From Candidatus Micrarchaeota archaeon CG1_02_51_15 (lineage in GTDB: Archaea; Micrarchaeota; Micrarchaeia; Norongarragalinales; UBA8480): a stretch of 37,497 bases of DNA. The DNA lies in contig MNVG01000019.1 of the NCBI GenBank assembly GCA_001871495.1, positions 1 through 37,497 on the forward strand, in the 5' to 3' direction. Each line of letters starts with the position of its first letter. The first letter of the stretch is position 1. A program made the position numbers and the translations under genes. Positions 2,665-37,497 of this stretch are shown here, piece after piece. The notes under the pieces are model-generated. The model had not been told where the DNA came from, did not search any database, and worked only from the letters and a program-made list of their open reading frames with translations.

Positions 2665-4395
2665 ATGGCAGAAGAGAAACACAGCCGCGCATTCATTGCG
2701 GCGCCTTTGATAGGTACCATCATTTTCTTGACGGCAATAGTGTTCACGGTCAACATAAACAAGGTCGACGCAGCCGAAACCAAGCTCATCGTAGGAAACG
2801 CCTACCACAACCGCATCGTTTCCCTGCTGGAATTATACCGCGCCGACCTCGGCGTGCTCTTTAGGGAAAGCATGGGTCGTCTTATTGAAACCGCTTTAAC
2901 TGCCCCGGGCTGGTCGCTGTTCAACGTGCCCCTATCTCCTAATTCCCACGTCGAAACAGAACATCCTTTCAACGCAGCGCTGCCGTCACTCACCCAGTTG
3001 AACCGCTTCGACAGCTGCGGACGCGTCAAAGAAGTCATTGAAGCAATGATTTGCTCGGACTCGTCAAGCGACGTGGGCTGCGGTCCAAACGTAGCCGGAG
3101 AATGCGAAGACGGCTGCGCACTAGGCGAAGGCGGCGGGCGTTGCGTGCCCGACGCTGAGCGCGCGGTAGACAAACAAAAGTACGGCTTGCAAGAATGGGT
3201 AACCAACCTCAAGAAGTCCGGACAGTTTGAAGGAGTTTTCTTCAGCCCCGCAGGCGAGATTGCAGGTTCGGACTGCAACGGAGCGCCTTGCACTCGCTTC
3301 GACTACTTCGTCAACCCCCGCAACGACCCGGCGTGCGCGCTGGCTGCAGGCAGGCCGCTTGACGACCCGCGGTGCAGTTACACCCGCAACTGCAAGAACC
3401 TCATTCCATTCATTTTATTCGACTGCCCCAACTTCGCCAAAAACAACGCCCAACCATTTCGGTGCTGCACCAAGTATAACACCCGCCGCGGAGTAGTTGA
3501 CTTAAACCTCGAACCAACTTACCCAGTTACCTTGGAAGACACTTGCGCCGAAGACGGGGTTATGGAAGGCTGCGAAGCCGGCAATTTTTTTGTGAAAATA
3601 AGCATTGCCAACCCCCAGGTGTTCCCTTACCTGCCGCGTTTACAGGCTTCTGACGGAGCAGGAAACGAAGTGCGTTCAGGCGCAATTGCCGACTCCGACT
3701 TTTACTTGTCGGTAAAATACCCTATTTACCGTTACATGGACGCGTCGTTTAGAATCTACGACCGGCTTGCCTACGGCGAAAGCGGAACCGCGTATCCTGA
3801 AAGAGAAGCGAACATAGGCTGGCGCGAAGGAATGCCTGGAGAATCGCCGGGAATAGTTGCCGGCTTTTTCGCAGGCGATCCCGCAGGATGCTTGGACGAA
3901 CACGGCGGCGGGGAAGTTGCAGGAAGGATTCCTCCCGAAGCAGACTTTGCAGGAGCAGTGGACGCGGGGCGTGCAGAAGCCGAAATAGGAGCCGAGTTGG
4001 GAACCGATTACTCTGCACAAGTAAGCCGAGCTGTTTCAGCAGCGGCTACGCCTGCAATAGGAAGCGGGCTTCAAGTGCGTTTTGAAGACTTGGTCGGCGG
4101 GCCGCTTGCAGGAAGCGCGCAGTTCACTTGCGACATTTCCGCAGCAGGTTGTTCCGAAGAAGGGTGGCAAGACGTTTTTGCCGCTCACTTCGGTGGCTCG
4201 GTGCAAATAAGTACCGTCGGGGCAGGCGCCGACGCGCGCGCTTGTGCTTACGTCAGGCGGCTTCCTTTGATTTCCAAGATAATCGACGAAACCGCTGCTT
4301 CGCGGGTGAGCTTGACTAAAGCAAACGAGTATTCTTGGATGGTTGACTTGCGCTTGTATGAAGACCGCGGCGCAGACCCGTTGGGACGTCGTTAA
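2665..4395 (+). CDS. Membrane-anchored exported protein, Cys-containing ectodomain, unknown function
   Basis: 576 aa; N-terminal TM (AFIAAPLIGTIIFLTAIVFTVNI) followed by long ectodomain with many Cys (CGPNVAGECEDGCALGEGGGRC). TATA-like CTTTTTATAG about 30 nt upstream. Confidence 0.75.
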   Translation: MAEEKHSRAFIAAPLIGTIIFLTAIVFTVNINKVDAAETKLIVGNAYHNRIVSLLELYRADLGVLFRESMGRLIETALTAPGWSLFNVPLSPNSHVETEHPFNAALPSLTQLNRFDSCGRVKEVIEAMICSDSSSDVGCGPNVAGECEDGCALGEGGGRCVPDAERAVDKQKYGLQEWVTNLKKSGQFEGVFFSPAGEIAGSDCNGAPCTRFDYFVNPRNDPACALAAGRPLDDPRCSYTRNCKNLIPFILFDCPNFAKNNAQPFRCCTKYNTRRGVVDLNLEPTYPVTLEDTCAEDGVMEGCEAGNFFVKISIANPQVFPYLPRLQASDGAGNEVRSGAIADSDFYLSVKYPIYRYMDASFRIYDRLAYGESGTAYPEREANIGWREGMPGESPGIVAGFFAGDPAGCLDEHGGGEVAGRIPPEADFAGAVDAGRAEAEIGAELGTDYSAQVSRAVSAAATPAIGSGLQVRFEDLVGGPLAGSAQFTCDISAAGCSEEGWQDVFAAHFGGSVQISTVGAGADARACAYVRRLPLISKIIDETAASRVSLTKANEYSWMVDLRLYEDRGADPLGRR

Positions 4396-7400: not shown

Positions 7401-10400
7401 AAGACGGACGCTACTCACTCCGCCTAACTCCCATCTCAACAGGCTGGATAGGCGTAAAAGTATCAGGCCCAGACTACCGCACTTACGACTCCTGCGCAAT
7501 CCGCGTAACAGCAAACGAATTCATTAACGCCAACCCCGAATACCTCCTAATAGAAGGCGACTCCTCCCAAAAACTCTCCCAAACAATCACAGTCTCCTCA
7601 TCGATTCCGGCAACCGCCCGCGTGTCCGCAACAGGCACCTGCTTCGGAGCACAACGCGTAATCAAAGTATTCCCCAAAACATTCACCCTCCGCGAAGGCG
7701 CTTCTCCACAAGTAACAGTACGCATTGAAGACAACGTCACTGCCGACCTACAGTGCTTAGTGCACTTGACAGCAACCATTGCACCCAACAACATCGCAGA
7801 AGCAGACGTGCCAGTCGACGTGAAAGTCACCTGCCCCGGCTGTCAAACAACAACTACAGCATCAGGCACAGTCGGCGCATCCACGCTGCCTTCAAGAATA
7901 ACCCTTTCAGTAGACCAAAACAACCGCATCGACGAACGCTCTTACGACATCAACTTGGAAACCGAACCCGTTTCCTGCGAAGTCCGCGGATTCCGAGTAG
8001 ACCCCTACTCCCAAACCCAAGCAACAACCGGCTCCGGACTATGGGGCTGCCAAGCCTGCACAACCGGAATGGGAATCGGAACCTACTCCTGCTCGGCTTG
8101 CATAATACAAGCACAAATGGCATTCCGATGCCAGCAATGCGCCACCCAAGGATACCCAGCAAACGCATTCTACTGCCAAAACTGCATGTCTTACTACGGA
8201 ACAATGCAAACCAGCGCCTGGAACGCGGCAGCATACCCCGGCCAAGGCTACAACCAACAAGGCGCATTCACCCAAACCCAATTACCCCAACAAGGCTATG
8301 GCGCAATCGTTTCCCCGCAGGGAACGTCCTACCAACAACCCTACGCCGCCTACCCCCAAATGCAATACCCCTACGCCTCTGGCTACCCCCCCTCATCATC
8401 CTACTTCGACACTGCAGCCTATGAAGACGTCGTAACCGCAGAGTGCACACGCACCGAACTAATAGTAACAGCAGACTACCACGGACGCCAACCCATGCCC
8501 GGAACCGGCGAGTTGGTAATGAGCTTCCAAGACGGCACCCGCAAGCGCATTCCCATCGAAGTAGTTGCAGCCAGCCAACAAGGCACTGCAGGCGGCCCAG
8601 GAACCGCAGGCTACGGAATGTTCCCAGGCGTACCAAACAGCGTGCCCCAATTCTACCAAATGAACTACTACTGCCAAATAGACTCGCGTTACTCCGAATT
8701 CCAAGAACTGCACTTAACCGGACAACCCGCTTCACTACGCCGCACGCTGCAATACAACTGCCCACTAGCATTCCCATTAACCAGGGCTTCGCTGCGCATT
8801 TCCACCCTCGACCGCAACACCGGCCAGCCCTGCAGCATTCAAGGCACGGTTTCAGGCCAAGGCGGCTCGCTTGAAATCAGTTGCGACTTCACCACCCAAT
8901 TCCAACAAAACCTGCCCAACGGAGAAACCAGAGCCTTCCTCGACATCGACCTGGCCTCGCCACAAAACCCAACCACCCACCTACAAGCAACAATCGAACT
9001 AATACTCCAAAAAGAACCCGGCACAGACGAAATACCACAACTATCACTGCGGCCCATAACCTCGTCCGACTTTCTCTGCAACGTACGCACCGACGAATCA
9101 GGCGGAATAACCACGCCAGGCCGCAGAGTAGTCCTGAACTACCAGTTCCCACGCGGCGCAACCGAAGCTACAATAATACTAATAGGCCCTAACGACGACG
9201 AAGTAACCTGGCGCGGCCTCACTCTAAACCGTCCGGTTGCAGGAAGATCAGCCACCAGCGAATTCAGGATTCCAACCAACGCAGCCGCCGGCCAATACGC
9301 CTTCAGAATGATTTACCGACCACAAGGCGAAACCGGGCTAGTAGGACAAAACTGCATCTTCAACGTTCAAACCACAGGCGGCAATCAAGAACCCGGCACT
9401 CCAGAAGAACCCCGGCCCCCCTCTAACACGCCTCCGTCAAACAACCCGCCTTCAAACAATCCGTCATCCAACACGCCGCCTGCACCACAACCAAACGACG
9501 AACTCGACCGTGGCAACGAAGTAGGCACAGGCAGCGACTTCTGCAACACGCCCTCACTCCACCCCATACGCAACATCGTCGTCTATAACATGATGCAAAA
9601 CGGAGGAACAATCGTAAGACAATCACAAGCAAACACGTTCTTCAGCAGCACCGGCGCGCAGGCAAAAGTCAAGGTGTGTTTGCGGACAGACAACGCAAAC
9701 GTTCAACCCAACCAACTGAAAGTCAAATTCGTTCCCGAAACCAGTAATGCGGCAGACCGCATTTCAATGAGCAGCGCAATAGGCTTCGAAAACTGCAACC
9801 AACTTGCACAAAACGGCAAGAGATACTGGATTTGCGAAACCACTTCCAGGCCGGCAAGCGACTTCGGCGCAACAACTGCAGGCACCTACAACACGGTGGT
9901 AGACGCACTTGCGGCAATAACCGAAACTTTATACCCCGACTACTCAAGCGCAGCCGTAAGCCTGTTCAAGAAACGCTTTTATTGCAACGAATGGCCGCTC
10001 CGCCGCAACGCCAGGTCAACAGCAGACCTAAGAATAGGCAGCGGAGCAAGCGCAGACAACGCAGTATACCAAGCAATACACGCCAACCCATTATTCGACT
10101 GCCACTTGGCAGCAGGCTCGGTAAACTTCCAAGTAAGAAGCGCAACATCCGGAACAACCAACGCGCACGCCCCCGCGGCAAGTAATCCAAGCAGAGGTCG
10201 CATTAACGCAGTAGTAAGCGGAATGACTTCCTCAACGTCAGTAGGCCACGCAAGTGCAGCCAAGACAATCAGCTTCTCAACATTGCAAAAAACCATTTCC
10301 TTCACCAGCCGGAGCTTCAACTGGGGGACAGCAGGAGTAATCGACTTTTCAGGCACTAGCGGCGCAACCGCTATAGAATTGGTTCCAGTCCTATCGGCTG

Positions 10401-31536: not shown

Positions 31537-31836
31537 ATGGCCGTTAAACAAGGAAAAGAACTTCGCGCGCTCGCAGCCAAAATAGTTCCAATACTACAGG
31601 CAGTCGGAGTCCGCCGCGCGGGCTTGTTCGGAAGCTATGCGCGCGGCGACGCGCGGACAGACAGTGACGTCGACGTGCTCATACTGCCCCCAAAGGGCTT
31701 TGACTTGCTTGACCTCGGCGGGCTGGTAATACAGTTAAGAAGCGTTTTGAAAAAAGAAGTCGACGTAGTAACTTACGGAAGCCTGGATTCCCGAATTAAG
31801 GAAAGAGTGCTTTCGCAGGAAGTGAGAATAATATGA
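31537..31836 (+). CDS. mntA: MntA-like minimal nucleotidyltransferase (antitoxin), pair A
   Basis: GSYARGDARTDSDVDVLI (GSX10DXD). ATG at 31537 is 1 nt after the giant 3 stop, with GGAG upstream. ATGA overlap with the HEPN gene. Confidence 0.88.
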   Translation: MAVKQGKELRALAAKIVPILQAVGVRRAGLFGSYARGDARTDSDVDVLILPPKGFDLLDLGGLVIQLRSVLKKEVDVVTYGSLDSRIKERVLSQEVRII

Positions 31837-32189
31837 CTCAAGAAAAGCAAGCCTTAAACAGGTTGTATCACGTGCGCGAAAGCATACGGTTAATCGAAGA
31901 ATACCTGGCCGGCGTTTCGAAAACAGATTTTATGGAAGACTCCAAGCTACAGGACGCAATAACGAGGAGGCTAGAAATAGTCGGCGAAGCAGTAAACAAC
32001 CTGCCCTCCGAAATCACGGCCAAACATCCTGAAACCAACTGGAAGAAAATAGTAGGCATGCGCATCGTCTTCGCACACGCTTATCTCCAAGTAGACCTGA
32101 AACTAATATGGAAAACCTGCGAAAACAAGCTTCCATTGCTAAAACAACAAGTTGAAAAAATAATCGCCGAAGAAGAAAAAAAGAGATAA
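31833..32189 (+). CDS. hepT: HepT-like HEPN RNase toxin (DUF86), pair A
   Basis: 118 aa; RIVFAHAY matches RX4HXY; LEIVGEAVNNL motif. Confidence 0.88.
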   Translation: MTQEKQALNRLYHVRESIRLIEEYLAGVSKTDFMEDSKLQDAITRRLEIVGEAVNNLPSEITAKHPETNWKKIVGMRIVFAHAYLQVDLKLIWKTCENKLPLLKQQVEKIIAEEEKKR

Positions 32190-32853: not shown

Positions 32854-34734
32854 ATGGCTTACAAAGAAACACTTAACGAAAGAGGAGGAATAACGAAAAA
32901 ACGATACGACCCGCTCCACAAGCTGACTGAAGGAAAAAGATTACGCGGAGGCACCGAATCGAAAAGAAAACAAATAGAAGTCGATTTAGTAACTCTCACT
33001 ACCACAAAAAATAATGAAAAACTACACAAGTTACTAACCCACTTGCTCAGCCAACACCGCCTATTAAACAAAGAAAAAGCGGAAACAATCTCCAGAAACC
33101 TCGTTGCAGACCGCCGAATGCTGGGAGAAGTACTTCAAGGAGGACACTTGCGCGAGGCAATAATCGGCCAAACCAGTGCATTCGAAGGAAAAAACAACTC
33201 CACCGAAGCAATAATGCGGCTAAAAGCACCCCGATTAGCTGACGCATTCATGCAACGCATACACGAACGCGGATACCTCCAAGGACTTCTAACCGCGCAC
33301 GCCGAAGCCAAACTACCCCCACGCGAACGTCATTTAGAAGTAAGACAAGAACAACCCGCGCCTTTAGAAGAACCTGCAGCCCCCGACTCGGAAGCAACTC
33401 AGGAAATGGGGCCGGATTACGCCGAAGATTTAAGGAAAGTGGAAGAAGCTTATCAACTCGGCCTTGAACACGGAAAGACGGAAGCCAAAAAAGCCGCCGA
33501 TGCCACGCAACAAGATAGGCTCAAACGATTATTGAAGACAATGGCCGGCGCAGGAGACGCGCGGCCTGAAGACCGCCTCGCGCCAAGGTCTCGGCCCGGA
33601 GCTCGAACGCCAGGAGGCGGCAGGTCGGCTCCGCGTGCTCCGTCTGGTTCCAGGCCTGAACGCGATTCGGAAGCAACCGCAGAGTATACCCGAGACGAAC
33701 TTAATGAAGCGCTTAATCAATCCGGACCTGAAGAGAAAGTTCGCGACGCACAGCCCGGCAGGCCGTCGGCTTGGCAACGTGCGAAACAAGGCATAACGAG
33801 TTGGAATCAACGGCGCAGGGAAGGAAGGCAAGCAAGGCGTGAAGCTAAAAGGCAAGCGCAGGAAGCGTCAGAGCGTGAGTTGGCAGAAGCAGCAGGCGAC
33901 GTTGAAGAACCAGATGAAGACACGCGGGACACCCTCCCTATTCCCACCAGAGGACAGCGTGCGAAAGCGTGGGCACGCGAGAAAGGAAGCAAGTTACGCG
34001 ATTACGTGCGCGAAAAACAAGAACAACGCCACGCGAGAAAAACAGAAACGAAGGCGGAAGAGAACGCGCAACTGGAGCTGTTCGCGCCCGAAGACACTGC
34101 ACAGCCAAGCAGGCCGTGGTGGCCGCGCACGAAAGAGTGGAGTAAAAAACGCGGCCAACGCGCTTGGGCTTGGACTAAAGTAAGGGCGGGAACTACTGCG
34201 GAGAAAGCACGGACGCTGAAACAACGCGCCGCAGACGCGTATCAAGAACGACGGGACGCCAAATCCCAACAAGAAGGACGAGTGCAGGCCAACCCGAAGC
34301 TGTTGGGCAACATCCTGATTAACGAACACGAAAGCCAAGCGCAAGCTAGGGACGAGAGCACGCTTAAGCTCGCAACCGGCCGCAAGAAGTTCGTGAAAGA
34401 ACACGGCGGATTTTTTTATAACTTGAACCACGTAAGAAAGTGGGCGTTGCCGAAGCCGAACGAAACCAAAGAAGAGAAGAACAAAAGGAACGCCGATTTC
34501 CACGCTTTCCTTAAAGACAAGTGGGCGTTGAAGACCAAGGCGGGAAAACTAATTGCAAACGGGTTGCCAATATTCGGGGTTCCTCCTGTTGCCGCACACG
34601 CAGCAGGCCTGCACGCCGAATACCAATGGGAGTCAATGAAGCACTTCTACGGCTGGTTCGGAAAACAAGGCGGCAAACTCAAGCAAAAAGTCCAAGACGC
34701 GCGCGCAAAACGCAGGCAACCCCCACAAGCGTAA
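32854..34734 (+). CDS. Large basic Arg/Lys-rich repeat protein of unknown function
   Basis: 626 aa ORF starting 3 nt after the previous stop; W/K/R-rich tandem units; C-terminal KTKAGKLIANGLPIFGVP...HFYGWFGKQGGKLKQKVQDARAKR. Confidence 0.7.
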   Translation: MAYKETLNERGGITKKRYDPLHKLTEGKRLRGGTESKRKQIEVDLVTLTTTKNNEKLHKLLTHLLSQHRLLNKEKAETISRNLVADRRMLGEVLQGGHLREAIIGQTSAFEGKNNSTEAIMRLKAPRLADAFMQRIHERGYLQGLLTAHAEAKLPPRERHLEVRQEQPAPLEEPAAPDSEATQEMGPDYAEDLRKVEEAYQLGLEHGKTEAKKAADATQQDRLKRLLKTMAGAGDARPEDRLAPRSRPGARTPGGGRSAPRAPSGSRPERDSEATAEYTRDELNEALNQSGPEEKVRDAQPGRPSAWQRAKQGITSWNQRRREGRQARREAKRQAQEASERELAEAAGDVEEPDEDTRDTLPIPTRGQRAKAWAREKGSKLRDYVREKQEQRHARKTETKAEENAQLELFAPEDTAQPSRPWWPRTKEWSKKRGQRAWAWTKVRAGTTAEKARTLKQRAADAYQERRDAKSQQEGRVQANPKLLGNILINEHESQAQARDESTLKLATGRKKFVKEHGGFFYNLNHVRKWALPKPNETKEEKNKRNADFHAFLKDKWALKTKAGKLIANGLPIFGVPPVAAHAAGLHAEYQWESMKHFYGWFGKQGGKLKQKVQDARAKRRQPPQA

Positions 34735-34743
34735 AAAAACCAA

Positions 34744-35142
34744 ATGTATTCTTCCACCCATCCTGAAGAACGAAGGCGACCTTTGCGAGAGTTGCGCGCC
34801 GAACACTTCCGCAGAAATAACGCCAAGCGGCTTTTTGAACAACGCACGCCGTTAAGCGTAGAAAAGCGGCTTGAAAGAAAGCCTTTGCCGTCTTTTGGAG
34901 CAAGTGAGACAAAGCAACGCACGCGGCGCATTAAGGAAATCGCGGCAAAATACTACGGTATAAAGTCAAAGCCCGGCAAGTTTGTTGCAAAAGCATTGCC
35001 TGTTTCTGGAGTTCCGTAGTGGACCGCGTGGTTTACAGGCAAGCACACTGAAATACAATTGCAGCAAATAAAGCGATTTTACGGCTGGATGGGAGTGCAC
35101 GGCAAAACGCTTGCGAAGAAAGTAAGGCAAGCGCGTTCTTGA
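34744..35142 (+). pseudogene. Small paralogue of the basic protein's C-terminus, split by an in-frame TAG at 35017-35019
   Basis: 91-aa ORF ends ...KSKPGKFVAKALPVSGVP-TAG. The same frame continues WTAWFTGKHTEIQLQQIKRFYGWMGVHGKTLAKKVRQARS-TGA, collinear with the 626-aa protein. Confidence 0.65.
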
Positions 35143-35221: not shown

Positions 35222-35542
35222 ATGGCTATGGCGTCTAAGGCGGACTTGAGTATTGCCCGAAAGTTCAAGTCGGAACTGGCTAAGCGTATTCCGTTGACTA
35301 AAATGATTTTGTTCGGCAGCCGCGCGCATGGAAAAAGCGGAAAAGAAAGCGATTTCGACTTTATTATAGTCAGCCCGAAATTCAAGAAAATGGAGTGGTG
35401 CGACCGGTCAATAAGACTCTACGACTGCTGGAAACCCCTTATTCCAATAGACATGCTTTGTTATGATCCTGACGAGTTTGAGAAGTACAAAAAAAGCCTT
35501 TCAACAGTAAAGCAAGCTGTTGAACAAGGCATTGTGGTGTAG
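35222..35542 (+). CDS. Nucleotidyltransferase-domain protein, pair B
   Basis: 106 aa; MILFGSRAHGKSGKESDFDFIIV; TATA-like GTTAAATAC about 20 nt upstream. Confidence 0.82.
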   Translation: MAMASKADLSIARKFKSELAKRIPLTKMILFGSRAHGKSGKESDFDFIIVSPKFKKMEWCDRSIRLYDCWKPLIPIDMLCYDPDEFEKYKKSLSTVKQAVEQGIVV

Positions 35543-35547
35543 CAAGA

Positions 35548-35946
35548 TTGGAAAAACCAGACGCCGGACAAGCAAGCGACTGGCTAAGGCAAGCCGAAGC
35601 CGACTTTATTGCAGCCGGCCACAGCGCGTTACTAGGAGACTTTCACGTCGCCGTTTTTTCCTATCAACAAGCGGCGGAAAAAGCATTGAAAGCAGTTTTG
35701 TTAGCACAAGGCAAAAACATTAAGAAAACGCACGACCTCAACGCAATAGGAAGGCAAACAGGCTTGCCTAAATCAATGCAGGACGGAGCTCGCTGGCTTT
35801 CAAACGCCTACATTCAATCGCGTTACGGCATGGTTGAAGACAAAATTCCTGCCGAAGCATTCACCGCAAAACACTCTGCCAAAGCCGCTTTTGCCGCAGA
35901 AGAACTAATTACCTGGTGCCGAAAGAACATTGCCAAAAAAAAATGA
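35548..35946 (+). CDS. HEPN-domain protein, pair B
   Basis: 132 aa, TTG start; WLRQAEADFIAAGHSALLGDFHVAVFSYQQAAEKALKAVLLAQG...KKTHDLNAI is a classical HEPN pattern. Confidence 0.85.
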   Translation: MEKPDAGQASDWLRQAEADFIAAGHSALLGDFHVAVFSYQQAAEKALKAVLLAQGKNIKKTHDLNAIGRQTGLPKSMQDGARWLSNAYIQSRYGMVEDKIPAEAFTAKHSAKAAFAAEELITWCRKNIAKKK

Positions 35947-35952
35947 CGAGGG

Positions 35953-36288
35953 ATGAAAATGTACGCCAAGAAACACGTTAAGACGATAGATGACGGAAGC
36001 AAGCGCAGCGTTCTCGCGTTGTGCGACGCAACCGTGTTGGGAAAAGTCTTGGAAGAAGGAAAAGTTTTTCTGGACTTGAAAACCAACGCAGGATTCTATA
36101 ACGGCACGCTAGTCAAACCACTGCAAGCCCAGACCATGCTTGAAGAAGCACTTGTCGACGCTCATTGTTCCATAAACGCAGTAGGCGAAAAATCGGTTTC
36201 CTGCCTTGCAAAAGCACTGCCAAGCTTCAAGCCGGAAAAAACCAAGTCAGTCCAAGGCGTGCCACACGCGCACGTCTACCGCGTTTGA
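35953..36288 (+). CDS. DUF424-like archaeal protein
   Basis: 111 aa; SVLALCDATVLGKVLEEGKVFLDLKTNAGFYNGTLV...AHCSINAVGEKSV matches the family as remembered. Confidence 0.7.
   Translation: MKMYAKKHVKTIDDGSKRSVLALCDATVLGKVLEEGKVFLDLKTNAGFYNGTLVKPLQAQTMLEEALVDAHCSINAVGEKSVSCLAKALPSFKPEKTKSVQGVPHAHVYRV
36269..36288. repeat. Direct repeat copy 1 (3' end of DUF424 gene)
   Basis: CGCACGTCTACCGCGTTTGA; 16-nt core CGTCTACCGCGTTTGA identical to the second copy. Confidence 0.8.
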
Positions 36289-36300
36289 GGTCTACAGAAA

Positions 36301-36308
36301 CTTAAATA
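36301..36308 (+). promoter_or_regulatory. TATA-like element upstream of pair C
   Basis: CTTAAATA within GAAACTTAAATAAAC, about 45 nt upstream of the ATG at 36353. Confidence 0.4.
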
Positions 36309-36352
36309 AACAACGGCTTCCCCGAACTTAATTCAAGAAAGGTTTACGCCAC

Positions 36353-36637
36353 ATGACTACAGTTGCAGAATTGAAGAAAAAAATAGTGCCCGTCCTTAAA
36401 AAATCCGGAATAAAACGAGCCGGACTATTCGGCAGTTGGGCACGCGGAGACCAACGCGCCAACAGCGACGTAGACGTTTTGTTCCTGCCTCCAAAGGGAT
36501 TCACGTTATTCGACTTAAGCAGCGTCGCAATCGAACTCAAGACCCTGCTAAAACGCGAGGTAGACCTCGTTTCCTACCGCGGAATACACCCCCTGCTAAA
36601 AGACCAGATTTTAGCTCAAGAGATGCGAATACTATGA
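36353..36637 (+). CDS. mntA: MntA-like minimal nucleotidyltransferase, pair C
   Basis: GSWARGDQRANSDVDVLF; closely resembles pair A. Confidence 0.88.
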   Translation: MTTVAELKKKIVPVLKKSGIKRAGLFGSWARGDQRANSDVDVLFLPPKGFTLFDLSSVAIELKTLLKREVDLVSYRGIHPLLKDQILAQEMRIL

Positions 36638-36987
36638 AACTAGACTCTCCATTATTTCGGTTGAAGCACATCCTCGAACGCATTGAAATGATTGATTTGT
36701 TCATGGACTGCGTTTCGAAAAAAGAATTCATGGAAAACCGAGAGAAACAAGAAGCCGTCCTCCGCTGCTTTGAAATAATAGGCGAAGCCGTAAACCAACT
36801 GTCCAAAGAATTCACTAAAAAACACGCGCGGGTCGACTGGAGTAATTCAGTTGGCCTCCGAATCCGCGCAGCACACTTGTACTACAGTATAGACTGGAAC
36901 ATAGTTTGGGACTCCTACAAAAACGCGCTACCCCAATTCAAGCAGCAAATAGAAAAAATAATCGCGGAAGAAGAAAACAAGACTTAA
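36634..36987 (+). CDS. hepT: HepT-like HEPN RNase toxin, pair C
   Basis: The track ORF opens at 36436, but the ATG at 36634 overlaps the mntA stop (ATGA). RIRAAHLY matches RX4HXY; FEIIGEAVNQL. Confidence 0.87.
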   Translation: MKLDSPLFRLKHILERIEMIDLFMDCVSKKEFMENREKQEAVLRCFEIIGEAVNQLSKEFTKKHARVDWSNSVGLRIRAAHLYYSIDWNIVWDSYKNALPQFKQQIEKIIAEEENKT

Positions 36988-36991
36988 CTCC

Positions 36992-37011
36992 CGCGCGTCT
37001 ACCGCGTTTGA
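36992..37011. repeat. Direct repeat copy 2, just after pair C
   Basis: CGCGCGTCTACCGCGTTTGA; 19/20 identical to 36269-36288. Confidence 0.8.
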
Positions 37012-37026
37012 AAAACCATTTCTTTT

Positions 37027-37493
37027 CTACACCGGCACGCACGTGCCGTCACGACAATGCGTCCTGGCACCGCACACAAGGTTCTGAAAACCCACTTGAC
37101 TGCCGTAACAAATGTATTCTCTAACCGCAGTTTCGCTATCGCAAACATCGGAATACCTTCCGTGCGACCCGCTCGTAATCACTCCCGTAGTAGTACCCTG
37201 GTACGCAGTGTCCAACCCGTCGGAGTCAACGCAATCCGAACGCGGGGCAAGCGCCTTTCCAACCGAACACCGCCCAGCAACGCAGTTAAACAAAACACGC
37301 GCACTCAAACTACCGCCCCGCGCAAGATAATCCCGCCCTGCTCCGAGTCAACAACGCCCTTAACCGACTGCGAAAGCGAAATGTCGTCAGAATAAACAAA
37401 GTACAAAACCACGCAAGCCAAAACAAAGCCAACTGCAAACACTGCAACGGCAGGCAACAAACTCTTTTCACTCAACGAAACCTTTTTGACCAA
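37027..37493 (-). CDS. Membrane-anchored protein with Cys-rich domain, apparently split by a frameshift
   Basis: 37493-37305 encodes a TM anchor (LLPAVAVFAVGFVLACVVLYFVY); 37308-37027 encodes a Cys-rich domain (DCVDSDGLDTAYQGTTTGVITSGSHGRYSDVCDSETAVREYICYGSQVGFQNLVCGARTHCRDGTCVP) in another frame. Confidence 0.55.
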
Positions 37494-37497
37494 AAAC

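Follow-up and report, generated by a model that had tools for sequence, protein, structure and literature searches.

We find that the 3′-end of a DUF424 gene is repeated immediately behind an operon of an MNT and a HepT-like gene in the window, by which we mean the whole 37,497-nt stretch of DNA analysed here, and we consider it probable that this operon was inserted at the 3′ boundary of DUF424 with duplication of the host target, as one case of a behaviour that extends across the class. The features concerned are collected in Table 1. The two 20-mers are identical at 19 of 20 positions, with a single base different and an exact 16-nt core, and a weaker extension to the left brings the match to 21 of 25 bases; the homology between the two copies of the DUF424 end stops exactly at the TGA. 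The coordinates, the identity and the core of this direct repeat were all verified as they stood in the original prediction, and so was its description of the interval as holding one toxin–antitoxin pair and one promoter-like element, namely the MNT and HepT-like genes and a candidate TATA-like sequence. No integrase gene lies between the window repeats, where these two genes are the only ones, in agreement with what was predicted. An assembly gap (N, 37498–37523 on contig C33) follows directly after the window, 486 nt beyond the right repeat copy.

Table 1. Features of the window around the DUF424 3′-end and the other MNT-HEPN pairs of the same gene run.
Feature	Position	Strand	Remarks
Second MNT-HepT pair	31537–32189	+	between 2882-aa and 218-aa genes, which abut in relative G001
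Third pair, MNT + HEPN (PF05168)	35222–35946	+	just upstream of DUF424; absent from G001
DUF424 gene (PF04242)	35953–36288	+	intact, ends ...PHAHVYRV-TGA; Pfam PF04242 E = 4e-9, above cut-off
Left direct-repeat copy, CGCACGTCTACCGCGTTTGA	36269–36288	+	final 20 nt of DUF424 with its stop codon
Inserted cassette (probable): promoter region + MNT + HepT-like genes	36289–36987	+	sole two genes between repeats
Candidate archaeal TATA-like element, CTTAAATA	36301–36308	+	~48 nt upstream of MNT start; read from sequence
MNT (MntA-like nucleotidyltransferase), predicted antitoxin	36353–36637	+	PF18765 53.6 bits, cut-off 26.9
HepT-like HEPN ribonuclease, predicted toxin	36634–36987	+	PF01934 80 bits, cut-off 23.5
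Right direct-repeat copy, CGCGCGTCTACCGCGTTTGA	36992–37011	+	displaced remnant of DUF424 3′-end; starts 4 nt past HepT-like stop (36987)
Convergent small secreted-type Cys-containing gene; right flank of insertion	37027–37497	-	lineage-specific; frame broken near 37300

The exact 16-nt core occurs at only these two places in the 1.13-Mb assembly, where three other matches carry two mismatches, and the 20-mer is thus not common genome-wide, which the original prediction had named as grounds for giving up its reading. Among 276 other gene ends from 20 stretches of the same genome, the best downstream match within 1.5 kb was 16/20, and shuffled sequence put through the same gene-end test gave 15/20 at best, against 19/20 at DUF424. 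The second copy of the DUF424 end is a match beyond chance. That the second 20-mer should have matched by chance, or should serve as a terminator, a dispersed repeat or another functional element, is extremely improbable in view of the rarity of the core and the behaviour of the other gene ends, even though the right copy can fold a small CGCG hairpin ahead of a T-rich stretch. A hairpin or terminator role of the right copy was tried separately and rejected, the hairpin being no better than those of shuffles (z = -1.4). One point that counts against an insertion is that the window repeat is short, with 20–25 nt recognisable and no sign of a longer original duplication.

The MNT and HepT-like genes overlap by 4 nt and form one operon, and both products score above the Pfam cut-offs, for PF18765 (Polbeta) and PF01934, respectively. 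GSX10DXD is present in the MNT protein (GSWARGDQRANSDVD) and RX4HXY in the HEPN protein (RIRAAHLY), of which R, H and Y are invariant among the sequences compared. By its domains and motifs the pair belongs to the HEPN/MNT type, which is among the most abundant predicted toxin–antitoxin families (PMC7641770), and its toxin and antitoxin roles are predicted accordingly. MntA/HepT systems have been described as two-gene MNT/HEPN operons with the same layout and both of these motifs (Yao et al., 2020, PMC7641770), which that paper ties to adenylylation and RNase action. In contrast to those systems, the window pair stays below the NCBIfam type VII equivalog cut-offs of 60 bits (MntA 54 bits, HepT 43 bits), which is why we speak of MntA-like and HepT-like proteins instead of the named equivalogs, and its activity is predicted from sequence. 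Mobility of the module is absent from the passages of that paper considered here. A viral carrier found no counterpart in IMG/VR, where a single-sequence query gave no HepT relative.

For a class-wide view, HepT-like loci were gathered across the class and the best local match was taken between the 600 nt upstream and the 400 nt downstream of each cassette. The score threshold of at least 18 was set after the window's own score was known, and thresholds from 15 to 20 all give a large excess. At 54 loci the left border was placed by distance because the motif pattern missed the MNT gene, which is no sign that MNT is absent there. Flank-to-flank direct repeats are present at 17 of 75 HEPN/MNT-type loci, with 0.3 expected from flanks mispaired across loci, compared with 28 of 1272 random and 7 of 314 ORF-anchored control windows (about 2%; Fisher p = 2e-11 and 2e-8, respectively); the controls had the same geometry and came from the window's genome (G000) and ten other genomes, with the background drawn from 40 sampled stretches. 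At a score of at least 24 the figures are 10 of 75 HepT loci and 2 of 1272 random windows. Repeats are about ten times commoner at HEPN/MNT loci than in ordinary DNA. The right copy starts within 100 nt of the cassette end at 16 of the 17 loci (binomial p = 3e-9), and within 30 nt at nine. About three quarters of the HepT loci tested have no detectable repeat. PIN (VapC) cassettes carry one in 3 of 63 cases, which is rarer than at HepT loci (p = 0.003), and flank duplication is thus shared with VapC cassettes and not exclusive to HEPN/MNT.

At 10 of the 17 loci the repeat falls on an identifiable edge of a neighbour, be it a gene 3′-end, a promoter with 5′-end or a tRNA-like 3′-end (the window, C48, L120, L124, L091, L136, L083, L157, L158 and L132). 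The other seven (L087, L088, L067, L069, L080, L145 and L154) are not relied on, as they may represent paralogous genes, coding similarity or dispersed repeats and not target duplications. L120, in genome G092, has exactly the anatomy of the window: the final 22 coding nt of a gene for 313 aa are found again 2 nt past the HepT stop. In four congeners the 313-aa gene has its 3′-end only once, and the cassette is missing. At L124, in genome G052, 82 nt of the enolase promoter and 5′-end are duplicated around the cassette, and again four congeners have a single enolase 5′ region with no cassette upstream. In both genomes the two copies have bases in common that the congeners do not have, at L124 AATAAC and a promoter stretch missing in all four. 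Because the copies share such genome-private bases, the duplicated DNA is the host's own and did not come from a distant donor. In the window's own genome, a cupredoxin gene on contig C48 has its final 39 nt repeated 26 nt past the HepT stop with 87% identity, the repeat ending at the stop codon as in the window, and a partial second cupredoxin copy lies ahead of that MNT-HepT pair. The duplicated part is the 3′-end of a convergent downstream gene at L091 and L136, the 5′-end of a gene homologous to the giant gene of the window at L158 (G017), and a tRNA-like 3′-end at L132. L083 (G125, contig C12) has two MNT-HepT pairs one behind the other, with the same perfect 35-nt promoter-like sequence ahead of each (1131–1166 and 1803–1838). 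Wherever a protein gene is involved, one copy forms part of an intact gene and the second copy is a fragment; the copy that is not under selection decays, as at L157 (G005), where part of a metallophosphoesterase gene is duplicated and the right copy has lost 297 nt internally.

The DUF424 site itself could be followed in relatives, 56 of 59 of which have DUF424 orthologues. The sole same-genus relative compared, G001 (matching contig JACCLL010000085.1, Candidatus Micrarchaeota archaeon isolate Sv246), possesses a single DUF424 end and lacks the cassette, and its gene order runs from the homologue of the 2882-aa gene over a 215-aa gene to DUF424, with no MNT or HEPN gene in between and no HepT match anywhere in the genome. 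In none of the 29 relatives examined in detail does the genome's own DUF424 end recur downstream of the gene, and no HepT match elsewhere lies near DUF424. The single end in G001, together with the same anatomy at other loci, supports the predicted insertion with regeneration of the gene end. A further expectation, that relatives would have DUF424 followed by the Cys-rich gene with a single 20-mer, held for the single end in G001 and failed for the right flank: there a convergent gene follows DUF424 at a distance of 3 nt, an FHA-type gene absent from G000 lies downstream, and the convergent Cys-containing gene of the window has no match, its weak paralogues lying at other places in G000. No ideal empty site was therefore found for DUF424, G001 being the only relative of the same genus and its right flank being different. 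Where G001 differs, the two DUF424 end copies of G000 agree with each other, and this one comparison points in the same direction, namely that the duplicate would be a host-own target. The window has three MNT-HEPN pairs in one gene run; the second and third show no terminal or flanking repeats above background, and neither do the pairs on contigs C37 and C7 of G000 show terminal repeats above background.

Integrative elements at tRNA 3′-ends regenerate the gene 3′-end and leave a displaced copy beyond the insert. The original prediction drew on this analogy, which holds for the regenerated gene end and the displaced copy but not for a shared site. Site-specific integration, with an integrase acting in trans on gene 3′-ends as att sites and incoming DNA bringing a copy of the gene end, would account for the duplications that end exactly at the stop codon (window, L120 and C48), for the tRNA-like 3′-end at L132 and for a VapC cassette at tRNA-Leu with duplicated 3′-end (L253). 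It nevertheless seems unlikely to us, as the duplicated targets of the 17 loci have no common sequence (judged by eye) and are between 20 nt and about 460 nt long, promoters or 5′-ends are among them (L124, L158 and L083), genome-private bases are present in both copies, and no integrase was seen in the inserts examined in detail. This lack of a common target sequence leaves a single att-like site unsupported, and in contrast to att-site elements the window insert has no integrase and no common core, with protein genes as targets and 5′ ends also used. The variety and lengths of the targets and the genome-private bases fit duplication of a host target better than a recombinase bringing its own copy.

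A plain tandem duplication of the gene end, which had been offered as an alternative, leaves the single cassette between the copies unexplained. In a fuller version, gene end and cassette would have been doubled by unequal exchange, after which the extra cassette was lost and the orphan end remained. In its favour, a class relative has an array of identical 1974-bp units with a pilin-like gene and an MNT-HEPN pair (L155), and in the window the 626-aa gene has an old tandem copy of its 3′ part with no cassette, but an exact additional deletion of the second cassette would be required each time, no cassette remnants were noticed behind the orphan ends examined in detail, and the cassette is wholly missing in the congeners at L124 and L120, so that we regard this explanation as quite unlikely. 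The same final structure could also arise by single-crossover (Campbell) integration, through homologous recombination, of a circle from a close strain that carries the cassette together with part of the target gene. Long variable repeats would be allowed by such a process, as at L157 or around the AlbA_2 gene of C48 (about 420 nt); repeats of 20–35 nt are, however, poor substrates for homologous exchange, and the origin of the first cassette–target junction is left unexplained, which makes this route very improbable.

We therefore return to insertion of the operon with duplication of the host target. The operon would enter at the 3′ boundary of DUF424 and duplicate the target, of which about 20–25 nt would still be recognisable, DUF424 would remain whole upstream, and what is left of its duplicated end would lie behind HepT. 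HEPN/MNT cassettes of the class would in the same way produce target duplications of variable length at the boundaries of genes, the insert itself having no gene for a recombinase. We infer that the host's own repair makes the insertion, either by filling in a staggered break in which the cassette is captured or by template switching in replication, since variable duplications without a recombinase would follow from either route. Inserts at gene edges would survive because the duplication spares the neighbouring gene, and, with intergenic space being scarce, insertion by a gene end would be tolerated if the duplication keeps the gene whole. The spare target copy would decay afterwards, and toxin addiction would then keep the cassette from being lost; the excess at HEPN/MNT loci may hence reflect preferential retention by addiction and not preferential insertion. 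Given the roughly tenfold enrichment of repeats at such pairs, the pairs appear to spread without a recognisable mobile element. A bolder proposal, which we put forward tentatively and hold to be rather doubtful, is that minimal HEPN/MNT operons, consisting of a promoter and two genes, are the mobility unit of an undescribed integration process that recurrently uses gene boundaries, duplicates the target and has no dedicated recombinase.

Insertion with long target duplication is known for restriction-modification systems (Nobusato et al., 2000, Gene 259:99; as reported in PMC1643837, PMC2654758 and PMC3874152), some of which, with no link to a mobile element, generate long duplications of variable size on insertion, with lengths ‘in the order of 100 bp’ (PMC3874152). 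The same review, which covers both system types, ascribes the mobility of toxin–antitoxin systems to carrier elements. The likeness lies in an addictive two-gene system, no recombinase, variable sites and a target that is single in a relative. A single target without insert is found cleanly in congeners at L124 and L120, and at DUF424 in G001 with a differing right flank. The cargo here is instead an archaeal MNT-HEPN pair and the targets are gene edges, and against restriction-modification duplications in the order of 100 bp stand 20–25 nt in the window and 20 nt to about 460 nt at the other HepT loci. No earlier report of target duplication for HEPN/MNT or toxin–antitoxin pairs, in archaea or Micrarchaeota, was found in the open-licence literature; a phenomenon that we found described only for restriction-modification genes would be extended to toxin–antitoxin pairs and to archaea with small genomes. 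The class-wide duplication signature, together with empty congener sites, offers a means to date and map insertions, the number of events is sufficient for statistics on insertion boundaries, and the signature makes it possible to ask if addiction to the toxin is by itself enough to fix captured DNA.

Several further arrangements were observed at related loci. On C48, an AlbA_2-type gene (L051; 1602–2903) lies between 42-nt direct repeats (1525–1566 and 2910–2951) that are 93% identical and have an imperfect palindrome inside, and a partial, broken second cupredoxin copy (2982–3405) comes after it. At L052 (G000, contig C37, about 7551–8290) a stop codon interrupts the HepT-like gene behind an MNT gene, apparently in a decaying pair. 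The degenerate copy of the 626-aa gene in the window (34963–35136, ~61% identical to the 3′ part at 34531–34705) is old, has no cassette and lies just upstream of the third MNT-HEPN pair. At L253 (G049, contig C1; 1214–1301 and 1936–1978) the VapC (PIN) cassette directly follows the tRNA-Leu gene, and a second copy of the 3′-end of this gene lies behind the cassette, matching at 36 of 37 nt. Finally, the L155 array (G056, contig C1, about 583500–591500) consists of three full identical copies and one partial copy of its 1974-bp unit.
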